Below, piece by piece: positions 29,926 through 59,710 of a DNA stretch of 64,000 nucleotides (its first letter is position 1; each line of letters begins with the position of its first letter). The position numbers were made by a program, and so were the translations under genes. The stretch comes from Daphnia pulex. Lineage: Eukaryota > Arthropoda > Branchiopoda > Diplostraca > Daphniidae. A model generated the notes under the pieces. The model searched no databases. It was given only the letters and a program-made list of their open reading frames with translations, and was not told the DNA's origin. The DNA lies in contig NC_060018.1 in assembly GCF_021134715.1 (NCBI RefSeq), forward strand, positions 6,341,501-6,405,500. The letters are read 5' to 3'.

Positions 29926-32900
29926 TCATTGGAATTCGGGTTTCAGCTGCCAGATCCCTTGGTTGTGGACATCTCTTGTGAAAATGCACAGCTGGTTGAG
30001 GAGGGCACGGAAGAGAGGAGCGCCCCGAAGGGGTAGCTTTCCGTCAAACTCGCTGAGGATATCGGTCGTTGTCACTTGGCCAGGTGTGACACCACGAAAG
30101 GCCACAAAGGATCGAATATTTTCGGTCATGGTGTGGTAGTCGACGCCCGTGGCGAATTCCAACGGAGCCGATTGCGTTTCCAAGATTAGCGACTCTTCCT
30201 CATTGGCAGATCGGAAAGAAGAGCCTGCTGCACAGTCATCTGCACTGTTGCCTGGCAAGCCCAGCAACCGGTTCCTCGCTTGCATTCGACTGAGCAAATC
30301 TTGTGAACTGAGAACCGCATTCGAACTTCCTGGAATCGGCAAATCAATGGCATCAACAGCTCCAGGTGATTCTTTCGACATTTCCGCATGGTGTGATGAA
30401 GTGCAAGCGCCGACAGATGGAAGAACGGATTTCTTTTTGGCACCAAAGCGAGGCTTCTTCCTGGAAACGATCAAATAATACCAAATAATAATACATAAAA
30501 ACGCTGAGAGCTTTGAGCAATTTTGTACGTGTCTGTAGGGCCTGCAGGACGGACAGCTCCGCTTGTTCCAGTCCACGTAGGAATTCCTGCTTCGGCTCTG
30601 TAACAATTACGGCGAGAACTCTTTAAAACTTGGACCTAGAAGACACACCAATTGATTAGATCAAATATTAGAACGCCGTAATAGAAATGTCTTACAGCTT
30701 CTTTTGCGACTCGCTCCGCTTCACCTTCCACTAGCGCATAGTCTGGATCTCCGGCATCGATAATACTATCGTGGCGTAAGGCACTCATTACTCCTATTAT
30801 CAAGGAAAACCAATAAAAAAATAAGGCTTGGACAGTCGTCAAATTGAAAAGGATAATGCTACCTGTCTTGGCAAAGAGCCGTTGGAGAACATAGTCATCC
30901 TGGTTATTGGATGAAGTGGATGGAGTGCTGCCATCATCCAAATCGACAGCGACTGAATTGTGGCTACTCATTTTAACAACGTGTTTCACTTTCGCACCGT
31001 CAATTTTAATTCGCTTCTTTTCCTTCTTTTCTTTGGCTTCTCGTTTCTTCCGTCTCCGCTTTTCCTCTTCCGTCTCAGTCATTTTCGTCTTTTGTTTTTC
31101 GCGTTTGTCCAGCGATTTCTTCCATTCGAGTTCTCTCTTTTCCCTTTCCTTTTTCCACTGACGCATCCATTCGTCGTCGCTAGGCTTGTCCATTATGCCG
31201 GATGGCGGCCCGTCGTGCGGATTGGTCGCCACTTCCGAACCCGTTCCCGCAAAGATCGCTTCAGTCTCTGTGCACTGGTTGTCGGTATCTTTCAGAGTGA
31301 AGAGTTCGTAGAGGTCGTTCGATTTGAAGAAACGTCTTTGCTTGGGATCCTTGAGCACACGATTGGTGAGATATTGCTTGAAAATTTGGCGGTGGTAGAT
31401 CTTTTCTTCGATGGTGCCAGATGTTAGTAAACGATAAATGGTGACGTCCTTTTGTTGGCCAATTCTCCAGGCGCGTTCACGGGCTTGAGTGTCGGTGGAC
31501 GGATTCCAATCGGGGTCATATATAATCACTCGATTCGCACCTGTTCTTGACGGACGAGAATTAAATTAAAAATGCATAACGGTACCAAACAAGAGCAAAT
31601 ACGAGCAGACCTGTCAGATTCACACCCAAACCTCCAACACGTGTCGTGAGCAAAAAGACGAAAATATCTGCCGATTTGTTGTATTTCTCAATCATGGGCT
31701 GCCGTGATCCAATGCTGGTAGTTCCATCTAATCGTAAATAGTTGTAGCTTTGCTGTCGTATGAAACACTCCAAAATATCCAACATCTAAAAACACGGTTT
31801 AAATTAAATAACAAGTCACACACATGTACGAAATTTATCTCGACACTTACCTGTCTTGATTGAGAAAAAAGCAAAACACGGTGGTTCTGTTCTTTCCAGA
31901 TTTTCAATAGAGATTCGACGACTAATAATTTCCCTGATCTTTCGACACATCCAAACTGTTTCTTGGGGTCACTCTCGTTGAACTGATCGTGTATCCATTT
32001 AAAACATTATTTTTATGTTTTTATTCTCTTTATTCTTTATGAATTACCTCTTTCTTACAACCAGGAGGTCCACCGTCAAATAAATCCGGGTGGTTGCATA
32101 TTTTCCGCAAGTTCGTGAGGCCGACAAAAATTTGCAAGCGTCCATCAATGATGCTCTTGATTTCCCCGGAATCCAAATAAGTTTGATATAACTGCCGTTG
32201 TTCTTGAGTTAAACGGCAAAACAACACCTGCAGTTGCAATTGTTAGAAAGCATCCAATCATTACGGCAAATGTTGTATCCCACCTGTTCGTTTTTGTCGG
32301 GTAATTGGAGATGATCTTTGACATCAGCTTTCATCCTGCGCAGAAGATACGGATTGATGGTATCCCTCAAAACTGTAGCGCACTTGTAGGCAGTAGCCAC
32401 TTGAACTTGAGATGCATTAGAGTAACCGCCTAGGTTGGAAAATATCTGATTTAATAGTTTGCATTTACCCAAGATTATCTGCAGTTTTACCTTGTGTAAT
32501 GGGAACCGCGAATTGCTGTAGAAAAATTGGAAGGGTTCCCAACTTTCCCGGGAAAACAAAGTCAAACAGCGACCAAAGTTCCTTCAAATTGTTTTGCATA
32601 GGAGATCCACTGAGAATGAAACGGTGAGAAGTGCGGAACTGTTTGACCACCAAAGTCGCTTGAGCATCCGGATTACGAATCTTGTGTCCCTCATCTAAGA
32701 TGACATAGTCCCAATCAAGTTCCAGCAAACGTTCAGAGTACTGCGGCACGCCTGTGTACGACGTAATGAGCACTCCATTGCTCGAATTGATGGATTTGAT
32801 AAGGGCATCTCTGGTACCCGTGTGAGAACCAGATTCGTGAAGTATTGCAACTCGAATAGGAGGGTACCATTTGTGGAATTCTTTGACCCATTGGTGCATC

Positions 32901-35900
32901 ACTGTAGCCGGAGTAATGAGGAGAACAGGACCAAGTCCGCGATAACTCGATAGCCGGGTAAGCAATTTGCTATGTGCCAATCCTGCGAGAAATGCTACTA
33001 CCTGAATGGTCTTTCCCAATCCCATTTCATCACCGAGAATGCCACCACACCTTTGCAACCTCAACTCGTACATCCATCGGACACCTACCTATTTGAAAAT
33101 AAATGTTGTAACTTTTTTAATTTTATTGAATAAATTATAAACTGCTTTTGACCAACCTTTTGGTAATTATAAAGTTGATTCCAGATGGAGAGAGGTATTC
33201 GATAACCACCTTCGAATTCTTCACAATCTTCATTTTCTGTTTCGAAATGCGGGAGTACGGCTAGTCTTTCTCGGAAGTCGTTGATATTTCCATCGTCGAC
33301 AATCCGGTCTGAAGTTTTCTTGGACTTTCTCTTTTTTGGTGTTTCTTCATCCTCAGAATACTCCCAATTGTCGGTAAATTCGTTCGACATTGACTGTGTG
33401 CGACCTCTATATTTCAGCTGCTTCTCAGCAAACAAAAGAACAACAAAAACGGGGGATAGGTGAGAGATGGCGCTCAGGTGGGCGGACCTTTCCCTTAGAC
33501 ACACCAGATCTCTTTTCGCTCTCGTTGTGCAAACATCATGTCGGATCCCGAACAGTCAAGCGATTCTAGCTCAAATTCTAGTAGTTCAGGCTCCGACTCA
33601 TCAAGAAGAGGAGGCGTAAAGAAATTTCGTCTCTCAAGTGAAAAGTCAGCTAGTTTGGCCGACTGGGTCGTATCGGGTTTAGATGACACTCGAGCGAAAA
33701 GTGCTAGAGAGGCCTTTAGACCCAAGCTAAAGAAGAACGCCGACCTGCTGATCAACCCCAATCTAGATGATGCATTCTACATCCGGCTGAAGGCAGTTAA
33801 GTCATCTTCGGCAGCCAAGGTCAACATCGACCCAATCGAGAAAATCTACAGAAATCAAACCTTCAAGATCCTTGACTTAGTCAAGCCCATCATGTTTCTA
33901 GCAAGTCGGCTCAAGAAAAAGAAGAAATCCCGAGCCGACGCCAAGGCGGTCAAAACAGCTCTGAAGCTCTGGGCGGTGGTGTACCACGACATCACGAACG
34001 CGCGACGCCGCAACATTCTGGCCCAAATCTACCCGCAGAATATTGGACTGCTAGACGACAAAGCTGTCCTGCCAACGGGTGGAGAACACCTCTTCGGTCC
34101 GAAGTTCACCCAGGCCCTGGTCGAGCAAGTGAAAACTCTGAACGCTCTCGAAAACGCGGGAGCCCCTCGCGCGCCCGGATCTAAAGGTGGTCATGATCAA
34201 CGCCAATCGAGTCGCGATTTCAGCCACCCCCCTTCATCTTCAGGCGGTCGCTATTCCAATTTTAAAGGATCTCGGTATGTCCAATCTATTCTCCTTTCCT
34301 TTTATGGGTTTTTTCTCTTGGACGCATAGCGCGTTTTTATGTTAAATTGTCAAGACCGGCTTTCGATCGGTGGAATTTATCAACGGTGGCCCCATATCTA
34401 CAACTAAATTCTATTTGTGATCCCGTCCAATTATTCGGGAGCGGGTTGGCTCACCAAGTTGAACTTGATTGACTCATACTTGTCGGTCTCAATTTTTTTT
34501 CCTATTTTTGAAGGCCTTTTGAAATTCCTTCAGTTTAAATGGGGGCGTTTTCTTCGAATTCGTGCCCCCCCCCTCCTTCGTTTTAAACTCAATGTGATGG
34601 GCGTTCACCAGACTAGCAAGGGGAGTGGTAACCTTCCTGCGGAAGAACGACCTTCGCCTCGAACTTTATTGGGATGAGATTTTAATCTCGGCGCACGGGT
34701 ATAGAATTGCCCCAGCACACTTCCGTGCTCTTCGGATCCCCTTAGATTCCAAACCGGATGATCATCTGATCAGGTCAAGAGAGCAATTTACGCTTTCGGC
34801 ACGTTTACAAGAGGCTCTTAGAAATCCTTCTTGGGTGGTTTCAAAGGCAGATTTTACATCTGGCCGTCCGCTCAGTTTTCCCGACGACGGATTTGTCCAG
34901 GGCGTCGGATGCATCCTTTTTAAAGAAGGGAGGGGGGCAGTATGAAACGAATAAGGACTAGGAAACTAGCCGAGATTGCCCTAGCAACACCACTGACCTC
35001 CCGTCCCTGATAGAGCTAGCAACGGAAATTCCGCTCCTTCTCTTCCCATCCAAGTAGGCTGATCTCCCCGTTGGGGGAGGGTCATCCATTGACAGGAACG
35101 AATCCATCTGTTTTATCGCTCGGTGGTTCTCCGGAGTTGTCTGGAAGAACGAACCTTTCCGAAGGAAATTATCGAGCTCATACTGGGAGCAATTCGATCG
35201 AATACGCACCCTGCATACCAGTCCGCTGAGGTCGCTTGGAGCAGTTGGTGTAAGCAACGGAACCACAACTCTCTGTTGTCTGGCGTCAAGGAGGTATTAG
35301 CTTTTCCTTGTTAATTTTCATTCCAGCAAGAGCTGCAGCACGGTGGGAAGGAACCCTCCGACAACTATTCGTATGAAAGAGTATTGACGCCTTTTTAGAC
35401 GAAATGCCGATTTGGTGGCGCATCCATGTTACACAGTCCAGCAGGGCTCCCACGAGCTCCAATTTTCAATCAGGCGTTGGTAACTGTCGACCATCAGGGG
35501 GTCTTATCTTATATCTTATTATATCTGATTATATCTTGCTTTAAAGACACAGTCAATGTCGAACGAATTTACCGACAATTTGTAAATTGTTCGAGCGAGC
35601 TTTAGCTCGCGATGAGCAATTTGGATTGTTGGGGGAATGGAGTGAAGACATTGACTGTCTTCTAACCACCCATCCCGCCCACTTCATTCCCGTTATCATT
35701 ATATTATTTAACTTGAATTAGGTGCAGCATCTGATTATTGACGGCCCACTAATTCCTCTTTCCTTCTATCTTTTTGCTAGATACAACAATGATAGCCGCA
35801 GATCCAATTTCGACCGTGGCTCACCCAATCCCGCCAATAAAGGCGATCAGAACAACAACAACAAATAGGCCATTTGAACCATGGATCACCTTACACATTT

Positions 35901-36858
35901 TCCGTTAAGCCAGATCCACAGTTTGTTTTTGCTTCCAATTCTGATGTGTCTAAGGGAAAGGTCCGCCCACCTGAGCGCCATCTCTCACCTATCCCCCGTT
36001 TTTGTTGTTCTTTTGTTTGCTGAGAAGCAGCTGAAATATAGAGGTCGCACACAGTCAATGTCTTCACTCCATTCCCCCAACAATCCAAATTGCTCATCGC
36101 GAGCTAAAGCTCGCTCGAACAATTTACAAATTACTGTCATCAGTATTCCATTCTTTCTCAATTTCTTGTTTCCTCTTTTTTCTTTGAAGGCCCCCAGGCT
36201 TTTTGGGTTTTGGAGATTCTTCATCACTTGGAACATAATCACTGTCGGATTCATTTAAATTATGAAATCCTTTTTTTGATGATGTCTTGGTTGGTGATTT
36301 TGGGGCTACTCTTTTAACTATGTTTTTCCCCGGGCTAAGGTTCACAACAGATGCAGGGCTTTTGAGGGTTTTGCCCTTTCTAGTTGAAACTTTTGTCTTT
36401 ACATTTTGGAGCTTTTCTTGTTCCAACATGTATTTTTCAAAGCTCGTCAACTCAGTAGTTTTGCCACTGGAACCTAGAACAGTGCCAAAAGGTGTCATTT
36501 GACCAAGCCGGACCATCTTTTCCTTTTCTGTTTCTTTCCGTATCTTAAGTGGCTTGTCAGCCACAGTTTTTTCCTTGTCACCATCTTTAGAAGCCAATAT
36601 TTTCTTGGCATTAATAACTTTCTTGTGACGTTCTTGTTCCTCAAGTGCATCGTCAACTTGGCGTAGAATACTTTCTTCAAATTTTGACTGATCATACACG
36701 GTGATACCCAGAGATCTCAATTCCTCTGATTGATTCTCGAGAGCTACACTTTCGATAATATCACGATTGATTTGAAAGTTGGGCAAGACTCGCGGGGTCT
36801 CATTTTCATTCACAACGGATGCAATTACACTCTCTGGACTTTCGTTAGGTTCTTCCAT
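29926..36858 (-). CDS. Ercc6: ERCC6/CSB transcription-coupled repair ATPase, first coding exon split by a DIRS element
   Basis: Swi2/Snf2-family ATPase that remodels stalled RNA polymerase II for transcription-coupled repair. Coding parts, in order: 36133-36858, then (after the insertion) 33157-33369, 32491-33088, 32284-32429, 32048-32227, 31851-31982, 31611-31785, 30863-31540, 30696-30793, 30529-30635, 29926-30460. Ignoring the insert these make about 1195 residues in one frame. Visible motifs: GDEMGLGKT (Walker A), DEGH (Walker B), [25 protein letters not shown], and [17 protein letters not shown] (motif VI). The C-terminus matches the CSB tail ([10 protein letters not shown] and a terminal winged-helix-like domain ending [10 protein letters not shown]). 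The N-terminal part (about 242 residues) is charged and disordered-looking. As sequenced, translation stops one codon past the junction (stop at 36124-36126), so this copy can encode only an N-terminal fragment or a truncated ATPase starting elsewhere. The downstream exons show no frameshift or stop, which suggests a recent or heterozygous insertion. Confidence 0.93.
33386..33503 (+). repeat. left inverted terminal repeat of the DIRS element
   Basis: 118 bases, the reverse complement of 35945-36062, from GACATTGACTGTGTG to CTTAGACACA. I found no mismatch by eye. On the minus strand it is an open frame that runs straight into the ERCC6 coding sequence. Confidence 0.93.
33538..35868 (+). CDS. 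DIRS gag-like protein, two exons
   Basis: The start codon is 34 bases inside the left repeat. The first exon (33538-34274) encodes a Ser-rich acidic start ([13 protein letters not shown]), then a helical basic domain ([20 protein letters not shown]) and a disordered His/Pro/Ser/Gly tail, typical of DIRS gag proteins. At 34275 there is a GTATGT donor. A pyrimidine-rich acceptor ending GCTAG lies at 35780. Joining 34274 to 35781 keeps the frame and adds about 29 residues ([15 protein letters not shown], then an Asn-rich end), with a stop at 35866-35868, giving 274 residues. This tail continues the Arg/Gly/Asn style of exon 1 better than the unspliced reading, which runs into hydrophobic residues and stops at 34327-34329. 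Splicing is inferred, not observed. Confidence 0.72.
34400..34945 (+). pseudogene. degenerate DIRS reverse transcriptase fragments
   Basis: Two overlapping frames hold reverse-transcriptase pieces. One includes [16 protein letters not shown], where the motif A catalytic aspartate (expected in KLDL) is replaced by Asn, followed by FLQFKWG. The other, one base out of register, has [19 protein letters not shown], where the YLDD box has become YWDE. Large parts of the domain are missing, so the enzyme is dead. The remnants lie within the proposed gag intron. Confidence 0.75.
35111..35314 (+). pseudogene. DIRS tyrosine recombinase N-terminal remnant
   Basis: The frame contains [20 protein letters not shown], then [19 protein letters not shown] and SGVKEVLAF. 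This resembles the SAM-like core-binding domain of DIRS/Ngaro recombinases. The catalytic half (Arg, His-x-x-Arg, Tyr) is absent, so it is non-functional. Confidence 0.65.
35547..35658 (+). repeat. internal complementary region of the DIRS element
   Basis: Bases 35547-35579 are the reverse complement of the left tip (33367-33399), and bases from about 35577 to 35658 are the reverse complement of the right tip (36051-36132). The two meet at the shared ATT/AAT, as if the element's ends were joined head to tail and inverted. This is the template thought to guide circle closure in DIRS1 replication. Confidence 0.9.
35945..36062 (+). repeat. right inverted terminal repeat of the DIRS element
   Basis: 118 bases, the reverse complement of the left repeat. 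A 70-base extension (36063-36132) follows, containing the near-palindrome GCGAGCTAAAGCTCGC at 36099-36114, and then the ERCC6 exon resumes. Confidence 0.93.
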
Positions 36859-53307: not shown

Positions 53308-56300
53308 ATGGCTAACTTGAATAAGCTTCCTGATTTATCAACAGTGGATATACAAGCAATTCAAGATTCTGGGCCAGTGCATCCACGTATTTCATTGCCT
53401 CCACTGACTACCATAGCTGAAAATTGGGACTCTGTTGAACCATCATCAAGGAATCTCATAGTGAATGACGAAAGCTGTAGCGAAGATGATGATGAGAGTG
53501 AAGAAGAAGGACAAAGCCATAGCAGTACACCTGGTAAAGTTCAAGACAGAAACTCTCATCGTACAAGCTGCAGTAGCAGTAGTAGTGCTCCTGATTCAGG
53601 AACAGATAGCTCAGAAACTGAGCTTTCGAATGCAACATCAGATTCTGCTGGGTCTTCGTCAAGTAGTACTGACAGTGACAGTGACTCGCAAAGTAGTGCT
53701 TCAAGTGCCAGTAGCAAGAGCAAGAACAAGATTCAACAAGCTTCTGGAAACAACAGAAGCAAAGCAAGCTTTTCAGTGCGAGAAGCAAACTTTGATAAAG
53801 GCAGAGTAACTTTGAGGCTTTCTACATTACAACTAGGAAGAAAAGAGGAGATAACTGATATCCCATTAGGCAAGACTGGAAAAATATCTAAACATGAAAA
53901 TACAAGGACTACCAATGTATCTTGTGCCAAGTCACGTGATTCAGAAAGTCTATGTTCGAACTCAAACAATCAACTTTGTAGTATAATTAATACTACAAAA
54001 TCCAGGCCTAATCAAGTAAAGCTTTATATCTTTCTACTCACACAACTTTTGTGTATTTACTTTTATTATTATTTTTTCTCATTTTCTAGAATCCTACAAT
54101 ACCTGCCAAGCGCACTAGGCAGCTAAGACTAAAACCCAGTCCGGAGCCTTTAAAATCTGAATCTTCGAAACTCTGTCGCAGTGGCTCGTCAAAGTCCATC
54201 GCCTATTCTACAACTTTGACGAAGACACAAGATAAAACAAGAGGGAAAGTTCTTGAAGCTTCTGTTTGTAAGAAACAGGAATGCTTACCTACAGCAGTTG
54301 ATTATTATGGAACCAGCATCACTGCTGTAAAAAAGGACCATAACCAACCAATAACGCCATTGGTTCGACCTCCACTCATCCTTTCTTCATCCCAACCGAC
54401 TGCTGTTAGCCTAGGTCCATCTATGAGTGATCTGGATTCTGATAGTGACGAACTTTATTTGCCTGCCGTCAGTGAGGCCATTCGTATGCTTGACCTCGAC
54501 AGTCAAAGATCGCCTGCCAGTCAGAATACAACTGGACCATCTCACAGTGCATCAACATCTGGCCATCCCTCATTGCCAATCAATCTCGCTTCTAATGTAA
54601 GTGGAAGTGCCTGGCCCTCTGTAGGATATTGTTCGAGTCTTCTGCAACAATTCGTGGCAAAATCACAATCCGGAGAGCCACCGCCACCTCCTCCAACTTT
54701 AATGCTACCGACAAAAGGAGCGCGGAAGTGTTTCCCCCCCAATGATGAACCTTTGCCTTTGCCAACGTTCACTAGTACGTTGGATCCCAAAAGTATTAAG
54801 CGTGCGACTGATACGACAAAGCCATCTTGCTTCACAGCCATTACCTCCGCCTCTCTTCATTCTTCAGTAAGTGTTGGTCACGCAGATCAAGAGCTGGACA
54901 TGATGGTACCGATGCGAGGCCTCGATTGTCATCCTTCGCACGTTTCACCTGACTCAGGCATCCAATCCGTGTCTGGGTCACCATTCAGCGTTCATAGTTC
55001 GCCGGTTCATCCTTCTGGAGCAGGGAATAATCAAACTAATGGTCAGTCACAACCTCTTGTCGCATCTCCCTGCCCTCAAATCACCTCACCAAGCCCACCT
55101 CTCCGTCAAAAACAAACGAGTAAAAAGTCTAATGGCAATCAAAAGAATTCGGCTGCTAGAAGTAAAGACGTCTCTCCTCAAGCAACAACAAAAGTTAAAA
55201 ACAGTAGTGGTCGGCAAAACGGGAGTAGAGGTAGACGTCCCCGTTCGTGTCGTGATACTGCCAGTGCCCTGTCTTCCGGATTAGGAAAAGATAGTAGCAT
55301 AGTTCAGGCTATTCAGCGCGGAATGAACGCCGCGCTTAGGCTAAAAAGTAAAGATGCGACAGAAAAAGAAATAACTTGTCCAACTGAGGTGGTTGCCACC
55401 AACGTCCTTCCTTTAATGCCTTCTAAAAGTTCACGAAAGAAAAAGTCTGGCAGAAATCAACAAAAAATTGCTAATGCTCAAGCATTAGAATCTATTAAAA
55501 CAGCTGATTCATCGACTTTTGGTATTGAAGTAACATCACAACTTCATTCATTGACGGCTAAAGGCAGTGAAGTTGAAACAAGCCCAGCAATGTCACATCC
55601 ACAACAACCTAAACTGAAATGTGAGTTAAAAGCTACAGCTACCCGTTCTCCATCGCCGCAAATAAAAAATAAGAAGAGGAAGAAGAAGCGGAAGAAACAA
55701 AAGAGCAGTGTTCATGATCAAGTCTTTTTAGCTCCGGTGGATCCGAATTTACAGAGCAATTTGGAACAGTTGTGTAGACGATTGGATCGTTGCGTCATCT
55801 CACGATCGGTTGCTCAAAATGGTTCTGTGAGTAGTGACGTGAGGCCGTGGATCTTCCAATGTCGGAAATATATCGTCGTGAACGGTAACATCAGTGGCAG
55901 CGGCCGAACGAAACGCAAGAAGGTTGTTGAAGACATAGCCATCCAGTCAAACGTCCAAACTATTGTAACAAAGCGCAAGGGCAAAGCTAAGAAGACTGGG
56001 TTGCAATCACCTCCTGTCGCAGCGATTTCAAATACTGAAACCAGTAAAGAGGACGAACCTTCTACTGCTACTTCCGCTGCGTCTGTTGTTCTTTCAACAG
56101 TAGAATTACTGTTACCTTTGAAAAAACGTCATCACCACCACCTGGCTACTTCCGCCGAAACTCCAGTAGTAGAGCCTGTTCCCGCCAATTTACATCAAAG
56201 CGAAGCTGCCATCGGAAAACCTAGTCACGAGCAAGTTCTCATCAAAGCAGGTCAACACCAAGTAAATAGTAGAAAGCGAGCGGCCAACAGCGAATCGGTA

Positions 56301-59300
56301 GCAACAGTAGAAACGACAGAATCAGTGGGCTTTGATCGAGAAGTTGAAAGCAAAGTTCATTTAGCCTTGAATCCGAAAAACAAAAAAGGGCGGTGTAGTA
56401 AAAAGGCGAAAACGGATTCGAAAATGGACGCAAAAATGGCTGATATTGCTGAAATAATTGATGCTGTTGCTGCGGCACCTGTTAACCATGATCATGAGGA
56501 CATGAAAACGCAGATGAATTCGTCTACTATACCTACTCCTGTAATACAAGGAGAAAATGATGTAATTGGAGATCAAGTAGCTAAGAAAAAACAACGCCGC
56601 CGTAAGACTTTCAACAGAACAGGTTTTCCCAGTGTGAAGAAGAAGCGCAAGAAACCGCCCAGTCCTATTCCTCCTCCTGTTTCTCAACCCCTATTCAACA
56701 AAGATGAAATTGATCAATCGGCCTGCCATACAACTTCCCGACAGGCAAAAAGAGCAAAACTAATGCCTAGTAAAGATGATGACGATGATGGACTTCTTCC
56801 GGAGCCGACTAGTAGTGAGGCGCCTTCGGGCGATGAATCCAATCCAATTCTTCCTCTTCCTACAAACAAAAGTTCACAACCCAAGAAGCGTCGAATGTCT
56901 ACTGTGAGGAAGCGTTATTTACCAGCCGGTCTGCTTTCAAATTACTTTAAAGAAAGTCCCGAATCCAGTAGCTCAGCAAGTTCCGTGTCTACTGATCGAA
57001 CCAAACTCTTGACATACGAACCAGAAGAACATGAACATGGTCTATTACCTCCACCATTCTACTGCGAGCGCATTCTGCGTAGAACTAAACGTGACTTTCA
57101 ATTGCCGTTCGACGTATGGTGGCTTCACCAACAGGGAAAGCTTCCCGATCGTGATAATTTGGTTCCTTCTTGGAACTACCGAAAGATCCGGAGCAACGTC
57201 TACTATGACGTCAAACCTCCGTTTACCAATGACGCTGAAGCTTGCAATTGTACATTACCACAGCCCGAGGCCGAAGGTAGTGATTTTCTTCTACTTTTTT
57301 AAAATTATTATTTTTTAAGTTTGCTCTTTATATTAATGATTTAATTTTGATATCATTAGATGCTGAGGCTCAGTGCTGTGGCGATGACTGCCTTAACAGA
57401 ATGGTATATACAGAATGCAGTAGTCAGATGTGTCCGGTGGGCGACAAGTGTATGAACCAACGAATCCAACGTCATCGCTGGGCACAGGGTTTGGAGCGTT
57501 TCATGACCAAAGAGAAAGGATGGGGAGTACGGTGTCGCAACGAACTTAAAACGGGTGTGTTCATTCTTGAATACGTCGGTGAAGTCGTTTCGGACAAGGA
57601 ATTCAAAGAGAGAATGCACACAGTCTACGTTCACGACACGCACCACTATTGTCTTCATCTCGACGGTGGGCTTGTTATTGACGGACACAGAATGGGAGGC
57701 GATGGTACGTGCAATTGTATTTCACTAAAATGAATCACATTAATTTTTTTTAAATGCTTAATTTAAATGTTTCGTAGGTCGCTTTGTCAACCATTCCTGC
57801 GCTCCCAACTGTGAAATGCAAAAGTGGAGTGTCAATGGATTACCTCGCATGGCCCTATTTGCTCTCAGAGATATCTCACCCTTGGAGGAATTAAGTTACG
57901 ATTACAACTTTTCCCTTTTTAATCCAGCTGAAGGTCAACCGTGTAAATGCGGTAGCCCACAATGTAGAGGCGTAATTGGTGGGAAATCACAACGAGTCAG
58001 TGTGGTATGTATCATTTATTTTTCCTTTTTAAATTGCACAATTAGCAGTGGTAACATAATGGCTTTGTTGATGTAGGTCCAAGATATTGATGGATCAAAG
58101 TTACCACAAAAATTAAGTCAACAAAAGCGGAAACGTAAGACGCAACTTCAAGGCAAAACAAGTCTATCAATCTGTTCGTCATCGATTAATTTGCGTCCGC
58201 TGTCGACACAGCAACGATCCTTTGTTCTTCTGCACCGCTGCTTTCTGCTTCGAAACTTGGATAAAGTGCGAGATTGGAGGGATCGCCAGAAAGATCGGAT
58301 GAAACAAGCAAAACAGCAAAACCAAATCGTGGGTCGTTCTCGACGCTTCGTTTCTAGACCAAACATTGATCAAGAGAGAGACTTGATTCTCACGACACTG
58401 GAAAGAGACTTGGCGCTTCAGGAAAACACGGCAACAGACATGGAAAAGTCATCCGAGCCTACCTTGGATCTGCAAATGTTGAAGATGGAAGAAAATCAAT
58501 CTAATACAGAGGAGATCGTCCGCTGCCGTTGTAGACTTTACGACGACGAAGGTTTGATGGTCCAGTGTGAGCAGTGTGAAACATGGCAGCATAGCGATTG
58601 TCTCGGCTCTGGAAAAGCTGCCGCTGTGGATGCTGAGCACTATGTGTGTCACGCCTGTGCTGGATTATCTCTCTGCCCCGACGATCTAAAGATTGTTCTG
58701 GTACCGCAACCGGAAAACCCGCCTGAAGGACAGACTTACTACCTTTCGCTTTACTACAAAGATTTGCATTTGCGACAAGGAGATTGTGTGTATGTATTAC
58801 GTGATCACGACACACCGGATTCTGAACGCACGCTTTGGAATGGTATAAAAGAAGCATACCCGTTACCCCGACCTCCGCATCATTTACCCTCGCACATCAA
58901 ACTTCCTAATCTGGACATTTTTCAAATTGAAAGAATGTGGACAGATGAAAACGGGAAGCAGTTTGTTTGGGGTCACCATTTTTATAGGCCACAGGACACG
59001 TACCATGAGCCTTCTCGGAAATTTTTTGTAAACGAATTGTGTCATTCGCCATTGGAAGAAGCTATTCCCATTTGGGCTGTAGTTGGTCGCTGCTGGGTCT
59101 TAGATCTTACAACTTTCTGTAAAGGTAGACCTATCGATGCTGTAGAGGAGCATGTTTATATTTGTGAATACCGCGTTGACCGGACAGCAAGCCTATTTTC
59201 AAAGAATGCCAGAACTAAATTCCCCATCTGCACGCGTCGCTTCGCCTTTAAGAGTTTCGTTACACGACTCAAACCACAGCGAACGTATCAACCTCATGGA

Positions 59301-59710
59301 GCTCCCCCGATTAACAGCCGCAAAGCAACGGAATCACCTGCTGTTAAATCTGCCCCGAAAAGTGAAAAATCGGGGAAGGAAAAGGTGAGGAAGTTGAAGC
59401 AAGAATCTTCTACCATGCAACAGCCACCACCATTGCCTGCTCAAGCACTGATAAAGGTACTTTTTCTTATTTTTTAAATATAGTATGTGAAAACAATTTG
59501 TCATGTTTTGGGTGCCACGTCATTTTCGCCTTTCTAATTCAATAGATTGAAGATCAAAAATTGCGGCTTGACAAGCTTCTCCGCCATCTTTTAATAAAAA
59601 AGACTCCTGAAGGATGTCCCACCGAAGACGCTACCCACTTGCTACATCGGGGACGTGGGCGTATGAGAGGACGCCCTCCCAAACGGAAATCGTCCAGTTT
59701 AACAACATAG
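53308..59710 (+). CDS. ash1: ASH1 histone H3K36 methyltransferase (trithorax group)
   Basis: Exons 53308-54015, 54090-57276, 57360-57704, 57778-58004, 58077-59456 and 59546-59710 give 2003 residues, near Drosophila ASH1. The first 1260 residues are disordered, Ser-rich and basic, with an AT-hook-like GRRPR near residue 615. Then come the Cys-rich AWS ([16 protein letters not shown]), SET ([40 protein letters not shown]) and post-SET ([14 protein letters not shown]). A PHD finger ([20 protein letters not shown]) lies at about 1636-1683 and a BAH domain ([20 protein letters not shown]) at about 1700-1865. The C-terminus ends with an AT-hook ([10 protein letters not shown]). There is no bromodomain between SET and PHD, as in Drosophila but unlike vertebrate ASH1L. 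It methylates H3K36 and opposes Polycomb silencing. The start has a good context (CAACCATGG). Confidence 0.95.

Follow-up and report, generated by a model that had tools for sequence, protein, structure and literature searches.

What becomes of a DNA-repair gene when a mobile element settles within one of its coding exons, and how might an element that has lost its enzymes still spread and make its structural protein? These questions are raised by a 64,000-nucleotide stretch of the Daphnia pulex genome (contig NC_060018.1, positions 6,341,501 to 6,405,500, our C2:6341501-6405500), hereafter the window, in which the first coding exon of ERCC6, the gene for CSB, contains a DIRS retrotransposon. 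Genome-wide searches covered 133,188,837 bases on 13 contigs. The account we favour, to which we give as a whole a probability of roughly 0.85, is that a young, pol-less DIRS element lies antisense in ERCC6, that the interrupted allele is a predicted null, and that the element's Gag is most likely translated from a spliced RNA.

Leaving out the insert, the gene runs on the minus strand from 36858 to 29926 in 10 coding exons and encodes 1195 residues (1196 codons if the stop is counted):

36133..36858, minus strand: coding exon 1, 5' part (codons 1-242, ATG at 36858)
33157..33366, minus strand: coding exon 1, 3' part (70 codons; the frame resumes here)
29926..33088, minus strand: exons 2-10, whole span
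33088-32491, 32429-32284 and 32227-32048, minus strand: exons 2, 3 and 4
31982-31851, 31785-31611 and 31540-30863, minus strand: exons 5, 6 and 7
30793-30696, 30635-30529 and 30460-29926, minus strand: exons 8, 9 and 10

Exon 2, which encodes the ATPase, matches human CSB/ERCC6 with an E value of 1.2e-90 and yeast Rad26 with 5.7e-69, the remaining SNF2 proteins scoring 5.4e-37 or weaker; this SNF2 ATPase thus resembles ERCC6 more than it does other SNF2 families. The CSB-specific N-terminal segments and C-terminal domain are present too: the N-terminal 242 residues match ERCC6 in two segments (1.1e-12), exon 7 at 3.9e-55, and the C-terminus a solved ERCC6 fragment at 8.8e-14 and CSB at 2.7e-13. 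By these similarities, the gene is ERCC6/CSB. Exon 1 has a single match in the assembly, and exon 2 has one at 100%, the next best being 37% identical; on these grounds a second copy is rejected. The genome still encodes elsewhere a DUF2043 domain, the domain of UVSSA. Among the literature matches listed, no title or abstract opening pointed to a study of ERCC6 or Cockayne syndrome in Daphnia.

The ends of the insert were set from 20 sibling copies, the best-scoring 20 of the 32 other genome matches to its gag part:

33370..36129, plus strand: core of the non-autonomous, pol-less DIRS element, antisense to ERCC6
33367-33369 and 36130-36132: flanking ATT, presumed 3-bp crossover (from the siblings' ends)
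33367..33508, plus strand: left end and left inverted terminal repeat (arm 33386-33508)
35940..36132, plus strand: right inverted terminal repeat (arm 35940-36062) and right extension
35547..35658, plus strand: internal complementary region, the left-end and right-end complements joined with an overlap of AATT

The two arms of the terminal repeats measure 123 nt and are 99% identical. Of the internal complements, which share AATT, that of the left end (35547-35580) covers 34 nt at 100% identity and that of the right end (35577-35658, against 36051-36132) 82 nt, also at 100%. The element, 2.76 kb in size, is built on the DIRS1-like plan described in PMC3266345. All 20 siblings carry ATT-GTCGG at the left edge; the right edge is ACAA-ATT in 18 and ACAA-AAT in two. 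These two, L029 and L031, pair a right AAT with a left ATT, a possible mismatch in the target crossover bases. A three-base crossover, which would leave no target-site duplication, fits the edge pattern of siblings and window, sequences that include no empty allele. Since the element ends X|ATT-GTCGG...ACAA-ATT, the interval 33367-36132 proposed in the initial annotation corresponds to the core plus both ATTs, and its reading of a DIRS insertion inside coding exon 1 is borne out by the repeat architecture and the CSB matches.

Read on the minus strand across the right junction, the exon continues as GAC AGT AAT TTG TAA: the frame runs two codons (AAT TTG) past the host part and stops, giving 244 residues that end in ...DDSNL. 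When 33367-36129 is deleted, one ATT remains and the exon is open over exactly 313 codons. Both the stop shortly past the right boundary and the continuous 313-codon exon had been annotated before and were recovered on recomputation. The downstream exons are indeed intact, in frame and bounded by GT-AG, but they number nine, not the ten first counted. We found no single intron that would restore the frame among 19 donors and 14 acceptors, the thresholds being set by the lowest-scoring splice sites in the nine introns of the gene and the scores derived from those introns and a splice-site consensus. An in-frame ATG inside the left inverted terminal repeat (33388..33390, minus strand) could restart translation and yield a 960-residue CSB; in the exon-1 transcript it is preceded by 56 ATGs of any frame, the gene's own start included. 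The earlier suggestion that the gene may use an alternative product is weakened by both results. Because of the stop after 244 codons, the single gene copy found and the absence of a one-intron rescue, we predict that the insert-bearing allele is a null that would yield only a 244-residue CSB fragment without ATPase. ERCC6 function would presumably be lost from this allele, which may be at low frequency or heterozygous; a homozygous null could nevertheless be viable, since Drosophila lives without CSB (PMC8892495). The literature matches listed contain no direct precedent for a DIRS insertion in a Daphnia coding exon.

The insertion is young, judging from its family. The gag part has 33 genome matches, the window copy included, and 28 of them are at 99-100% identity. 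Over their full length 19 of the 20 siblings match within about 1.3%, L033 having a 237-bp internal gap. L030 is identical to the window copy over 2767 bp, and nine other siblings compared gap-free differ in the core only at 33504, with edge bases at 33366 or 36131 also differing in three of the nine. At D. pulex mutation rates of 2.30-4.53e-9 per site and generation (PMC12926508), a copy with 0-1 private changes across 2767 bp was inserted no more than roughly 0.24-0.74 million generations ago, a hand estimate at 95% that leaves out reverse-transcription errors. The initial annotation had deduced a recent loss of the gene from its intact exons; the recency stands, but it rests chiefly on the identity with sibling copies, since intact exons by themselves set a loose limit on the age (hand estimate). 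Rho et al. have reported putative somatic insertions for two DIRS families among D. pulex lines (PMC2996953).

What such an element can encode is best seen by comparison with its relatives, which also include L042 and L043, two of the remaining 12 gag matches compared as shorter stretches, and three distant families:

33538..34274, plus strand: Gag exon 1, 246 codons including the split codon, with mostly synonymous change relative to L043
34275..35780, plus strand: predicted phase-2 intron of 1506 nt, GTATGT ... TTTTTGCTAG, holding the remnants of pol and the recombinase and the internal complementary region
34988..35314, plus strand: decayed tyrosine-recombinase fragment, 61% identity, 4 in-frame stops (C2:6376488-6376814)
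35781..35868, plus strand: predicted distal Gag exon, with the end of the split codon, a 28-residue tail rich in R, N and G, and a stop
C1:1345400-1350400, C10:9090200-9095200 and C7:5171400-5176400: distant DIRS families L044, L045 and L046

The window copy has lost pol, the recombinase fragment being the only remnant found. L043, whose gag half is 89% identical, has open frames of 943 codons (gag-pol) and 502 codons (recombinase), pieces of which match RVT_1 (7.5e-24) and Phage_integrase (1.3e-11); this relative thus contains a reverse transcriptase and a tyrosine recombinase. Two further recombinase matches at 99% have one stop each. Between the window and L043, 37 of the 55 changed codons in Gag exon 1 are synonymous, against an expected fraction of 0.283 (binomial p 2e-9); since the branch joining them includes pol-bearing ancestors, this does not prove that the Gag of the short family is still under selection. 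Near-identical Gag-only copies number at least 28, against at least three close pol-bearing relatives. Genome-wide there are at least 109 recombinase matches, ten of which score identically (46% identity, 373-residue open frame) and perhaps belong to another recently expanded DIRS family.

Without splicing, the Gag of the window copy meets a stop 16 residues after GSRY. Splicing from the donor CG|GTATGT at 34275 to the acceptor TTTTTGCTAG, which ends at 35780, would connect it in frame with the distal exon. In L043 the donor lies inside the long gag-pol frame, and an acceptor is found at the matching place past the internal complementary region. The three distant families, with recombinase identities of 52, 48 and 44% (L044, L045 and L046), have phase-2 donors where Gag ends (AAT|GTACGT, AAG|GTATGA and AGG|GTATGT) and, in all three, a pyrimidine-rich acceptor just past the internal complementary region. 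The window copy and four of five relatives (L043-L046, the exception being L042) thus combine an in-frame donor with a post-junction acceptor. The tails predicted for L043-L046 measure 12-30 residues, 58-80% of which are R, K, G, N, Q or S; as a control, of 391 frames that follow comparable acceptors in these four loci, 34 reach 55% of these residues. The pattern is limited by the fact that the sites were selected among candidates: acceptors numbered one in L045, two in L044 and three in each of L043 and L046, and each locus had several donors. Among the siblings the donor is kept in 19/20 and the acceptor in 20/20, the copies being nearly identical. This pattern suggests that spliced RNA would give Gag and unspliced RNA Gag-Pol. 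The genome RNA would have to stay unspliced, because the intron holds the region needed for circle formation. It seems fairly probable, in our judgement, that the DIRS elements of this genome divide Gag from Gag-Pol by alternative splicing, with a phase-2 intron that spans pol, the recombinase and the circle junction and leads to a very small basic last exon ahead of the right repeat, and that a Gag-only derivative with just this layout has outgrown its close pol-bearing relatives, lately breaking genes that include ERCC6. The words "intron" and "splic" are absent from the main texts of PMC3266345, PMC2685390 and PMC9210276, and "intron" from that of PMC2996953; titles and abstract openings among the matches listed, a scope mostly outside the subscription literature, hold nothing on a spliced DIRS Gag.

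ERCC6 does not stand apart among the insertion sites of this family. Spanning frames, obtained by joining the flanks, were compared with 200 random positions each (for the sibling sites, in the right flank only). The frame across the window insertion clearly exceeds the 95% null (342 versus 157), and so do, by varying amounts, those of 6/20 siblings: L028 (156 versus 105), L040 (120 versus 96), L037 (233 versus 203), L026 (101 versus 90), L036 (367 versus 348) and L035 (178 versus 176). Nine of the 20 sibling frames were scanned against Pfam, with matches in four (L022, L035, L036 and L031) and none in the other five (L026, L033, L037, L040 and L041). In L022 (C12:540000-548600) a match to AKAP7_NLS at residues 19-133 is broken after residue 126, in L035 (C7:12122000-12130600) a 7tm_7 chemosensory-receptor frame, matched at 8-171, is broken after 130, and in L036 (C3:2166400-2175000) a MIF4G frame is broken after codon six, counted from an in-frame ATG; in L031 the match is to the C-terminal domain of fatty-acyl reductases (Sterile), and the break falls past the domain, perhaps in an intron. 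The L022 frame is AKAP7/2'-5' RNA ligase-like and is cut near the end of the domain match. Because L022, L035 and L036 interrupt Pfam-supported frames, ERCC6 appears to be one casualty among several in a recent burst of insertions into reading frames. As a gene-breaking insertion it is striking, yet an ordinary product of a young family, and the predicted Gag intron is the more novel matter.

We propose that a pol-less DIRS member was reverse-transcribed and circularised by the enzymes of an autonomous relative, presumably supplied in trans, and that the circle recombined at an ATT of ERCC6 (read as AAT, codon 243) in antisense to the gene. The interrupted allele would then give a 244-residue CSB fragment without ATPase. 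In the element's Gag RNA, splicing would remove the pol remnant together with the internal complementary region and add a small distal exon, the full-length genomic RNA remaining unspliced; the splicing step is proposed because several families have splice signals at corresponding positions. Several observations weigh against this account. The insertion is known from one assembled sequence, in which assembly error or heterozygosity is possible, and the rescue test covered single canonical introns. The siblings were chosen by score, not at random. The frame of L022 falls below its 95% null (160 versus 182), as 13 more siblings also fail to rise above theirs, and L036 and L035 barely exceed it. 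As for the intron, L042 (93%) retains only a left part of about 1.2 kb without the Gag acceptor, and a second frame after the L043 acceptor is nearly as rich in R, K, G, N, Q and S (0.68 versus 0.73). The residues of the distal exon are not visibly conserved between the window and L043 (three synonymous and eight non-synonymous codons), and the intron reading is further limited in L044 and L045, whose gag and pol frames are not continuous.

Other explanations of the locus can be confronted with the same evidence. A promoter in the element might drive a shorter but working CSB of 960 residues, with ATPase and C-terminus, restarted at the ATG at 33390, which is in frame and open into the rest of the gene; in Dictyostelium DIRS-1 both inverted terminal repeats do drive transcription (PMC4482531). 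However, there the left repeat gives sense and the right one antisense transcripts (PMC4482531), so that a transcript from the right repeat would here first cross the whole element; a transcript from exon 1 would present the 56 earlier ATGs, and the product would lose the conserved N-terminal part. We regard this as very unlikely. That the insert is simply spliced out and ERCC6 expressed normally is, in our view, extremely unlikely: the gene's introns are short and its weakest own donor and acceptor score low, but none of the donor and acceptor pairs gave an in-frame rescue, and the intron predicted within the element runs on the opposite strand and spans just a part of the element.

It could also be that the assembly misplaced the element into the exon, in favour of which one may cite a repetitive family with nearly identical copies. 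Against this, the element ends here as it does at 20 other sites and, with one ATT left, the exon is joined in frame, and we hold such an artefact to be exceedingly improbable. An old, fixed loss of ERCC6 would have a parallel in Drosophila, which shows that life without CSB is possible for an arthropod (PMC8892495). The remaining exons are nonetheless all open with GT-AG sites, and the insert is identical to L030, within the age cap estimated above; a loss of this kind is highly improbable.

Should the predicted null allele be real in living clones, CSB would be naturally missing from an arthropod that has otherwise retained both the gene and a UVSSA-type domain, and one could ask to what extent transcription-coupled repair relies on CSB beyond the mammals. 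The reference genome would moreover make the species look poorer in ERCC6 than it is. Spliced Gag, if true, would explain how the structural protein of DIRS elements is made apart from the enzymes and would provide a simple marker of expressed copies in RNA data. Elsewhere in the window, the plus strand carries a 1070-residue open frame without Pfam match at 54090-57302, followed at 58077-59477 by a frame with BAH/PHD domains.

DIRS sequences have entered host genes before: the LAP2alpha exon of TMPO, and ZNF451, derive from DIRS1 gag (PMC4495291). The likeness lies in the presence of DIRS gag sequence in a host gene, but in TMPO and ZNF451 gag was domesticated via alternative splicing, whereas the ERCC6 insert is antisense. 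Because of this orientation, a fusion of Gag with ERCC6 is not expected. Human ERCC6 itself hosts PGBD3, which is intronic, lies in the orientation of the gene, has its own splice and polyadenylation signals and is domesticated. The initial annotation was reminded of this case, and a mobile element does lie in the same gene, 5' of the part encoding the ATPase. Yet the analogy goes little further, for the DIRS copy is exonic, antisense and young, for which reason a PGBD3-like domestication is rejected, and its siblings break unrelated frames likewise. Closer at hand are DIRS1-like elements (PMC3266345, PMC2996953), with which the window copy shares inverted terminal repeats, two internal complementary regions that overlap on the circle junction, a right extension, and a relative (L043) with reverse transcriptase and tyrosine recombinase, although intact D. 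pulex DIRS measure 4.3-5.5 kb (PMC2996953) against its 2.76 kb. Unlike them, it has lost pol and kept Gag, with a predicted Gag intron and distal exon. In Drosophila, copia makes Gag from a spliced RNA lacking pol and Gag-Pol from the unspliced RNA. The same split by splicing is predicted here, with the difference that the element is of the tyrosine-recombinase kind and its last exon would lie past the region of the circle junction.

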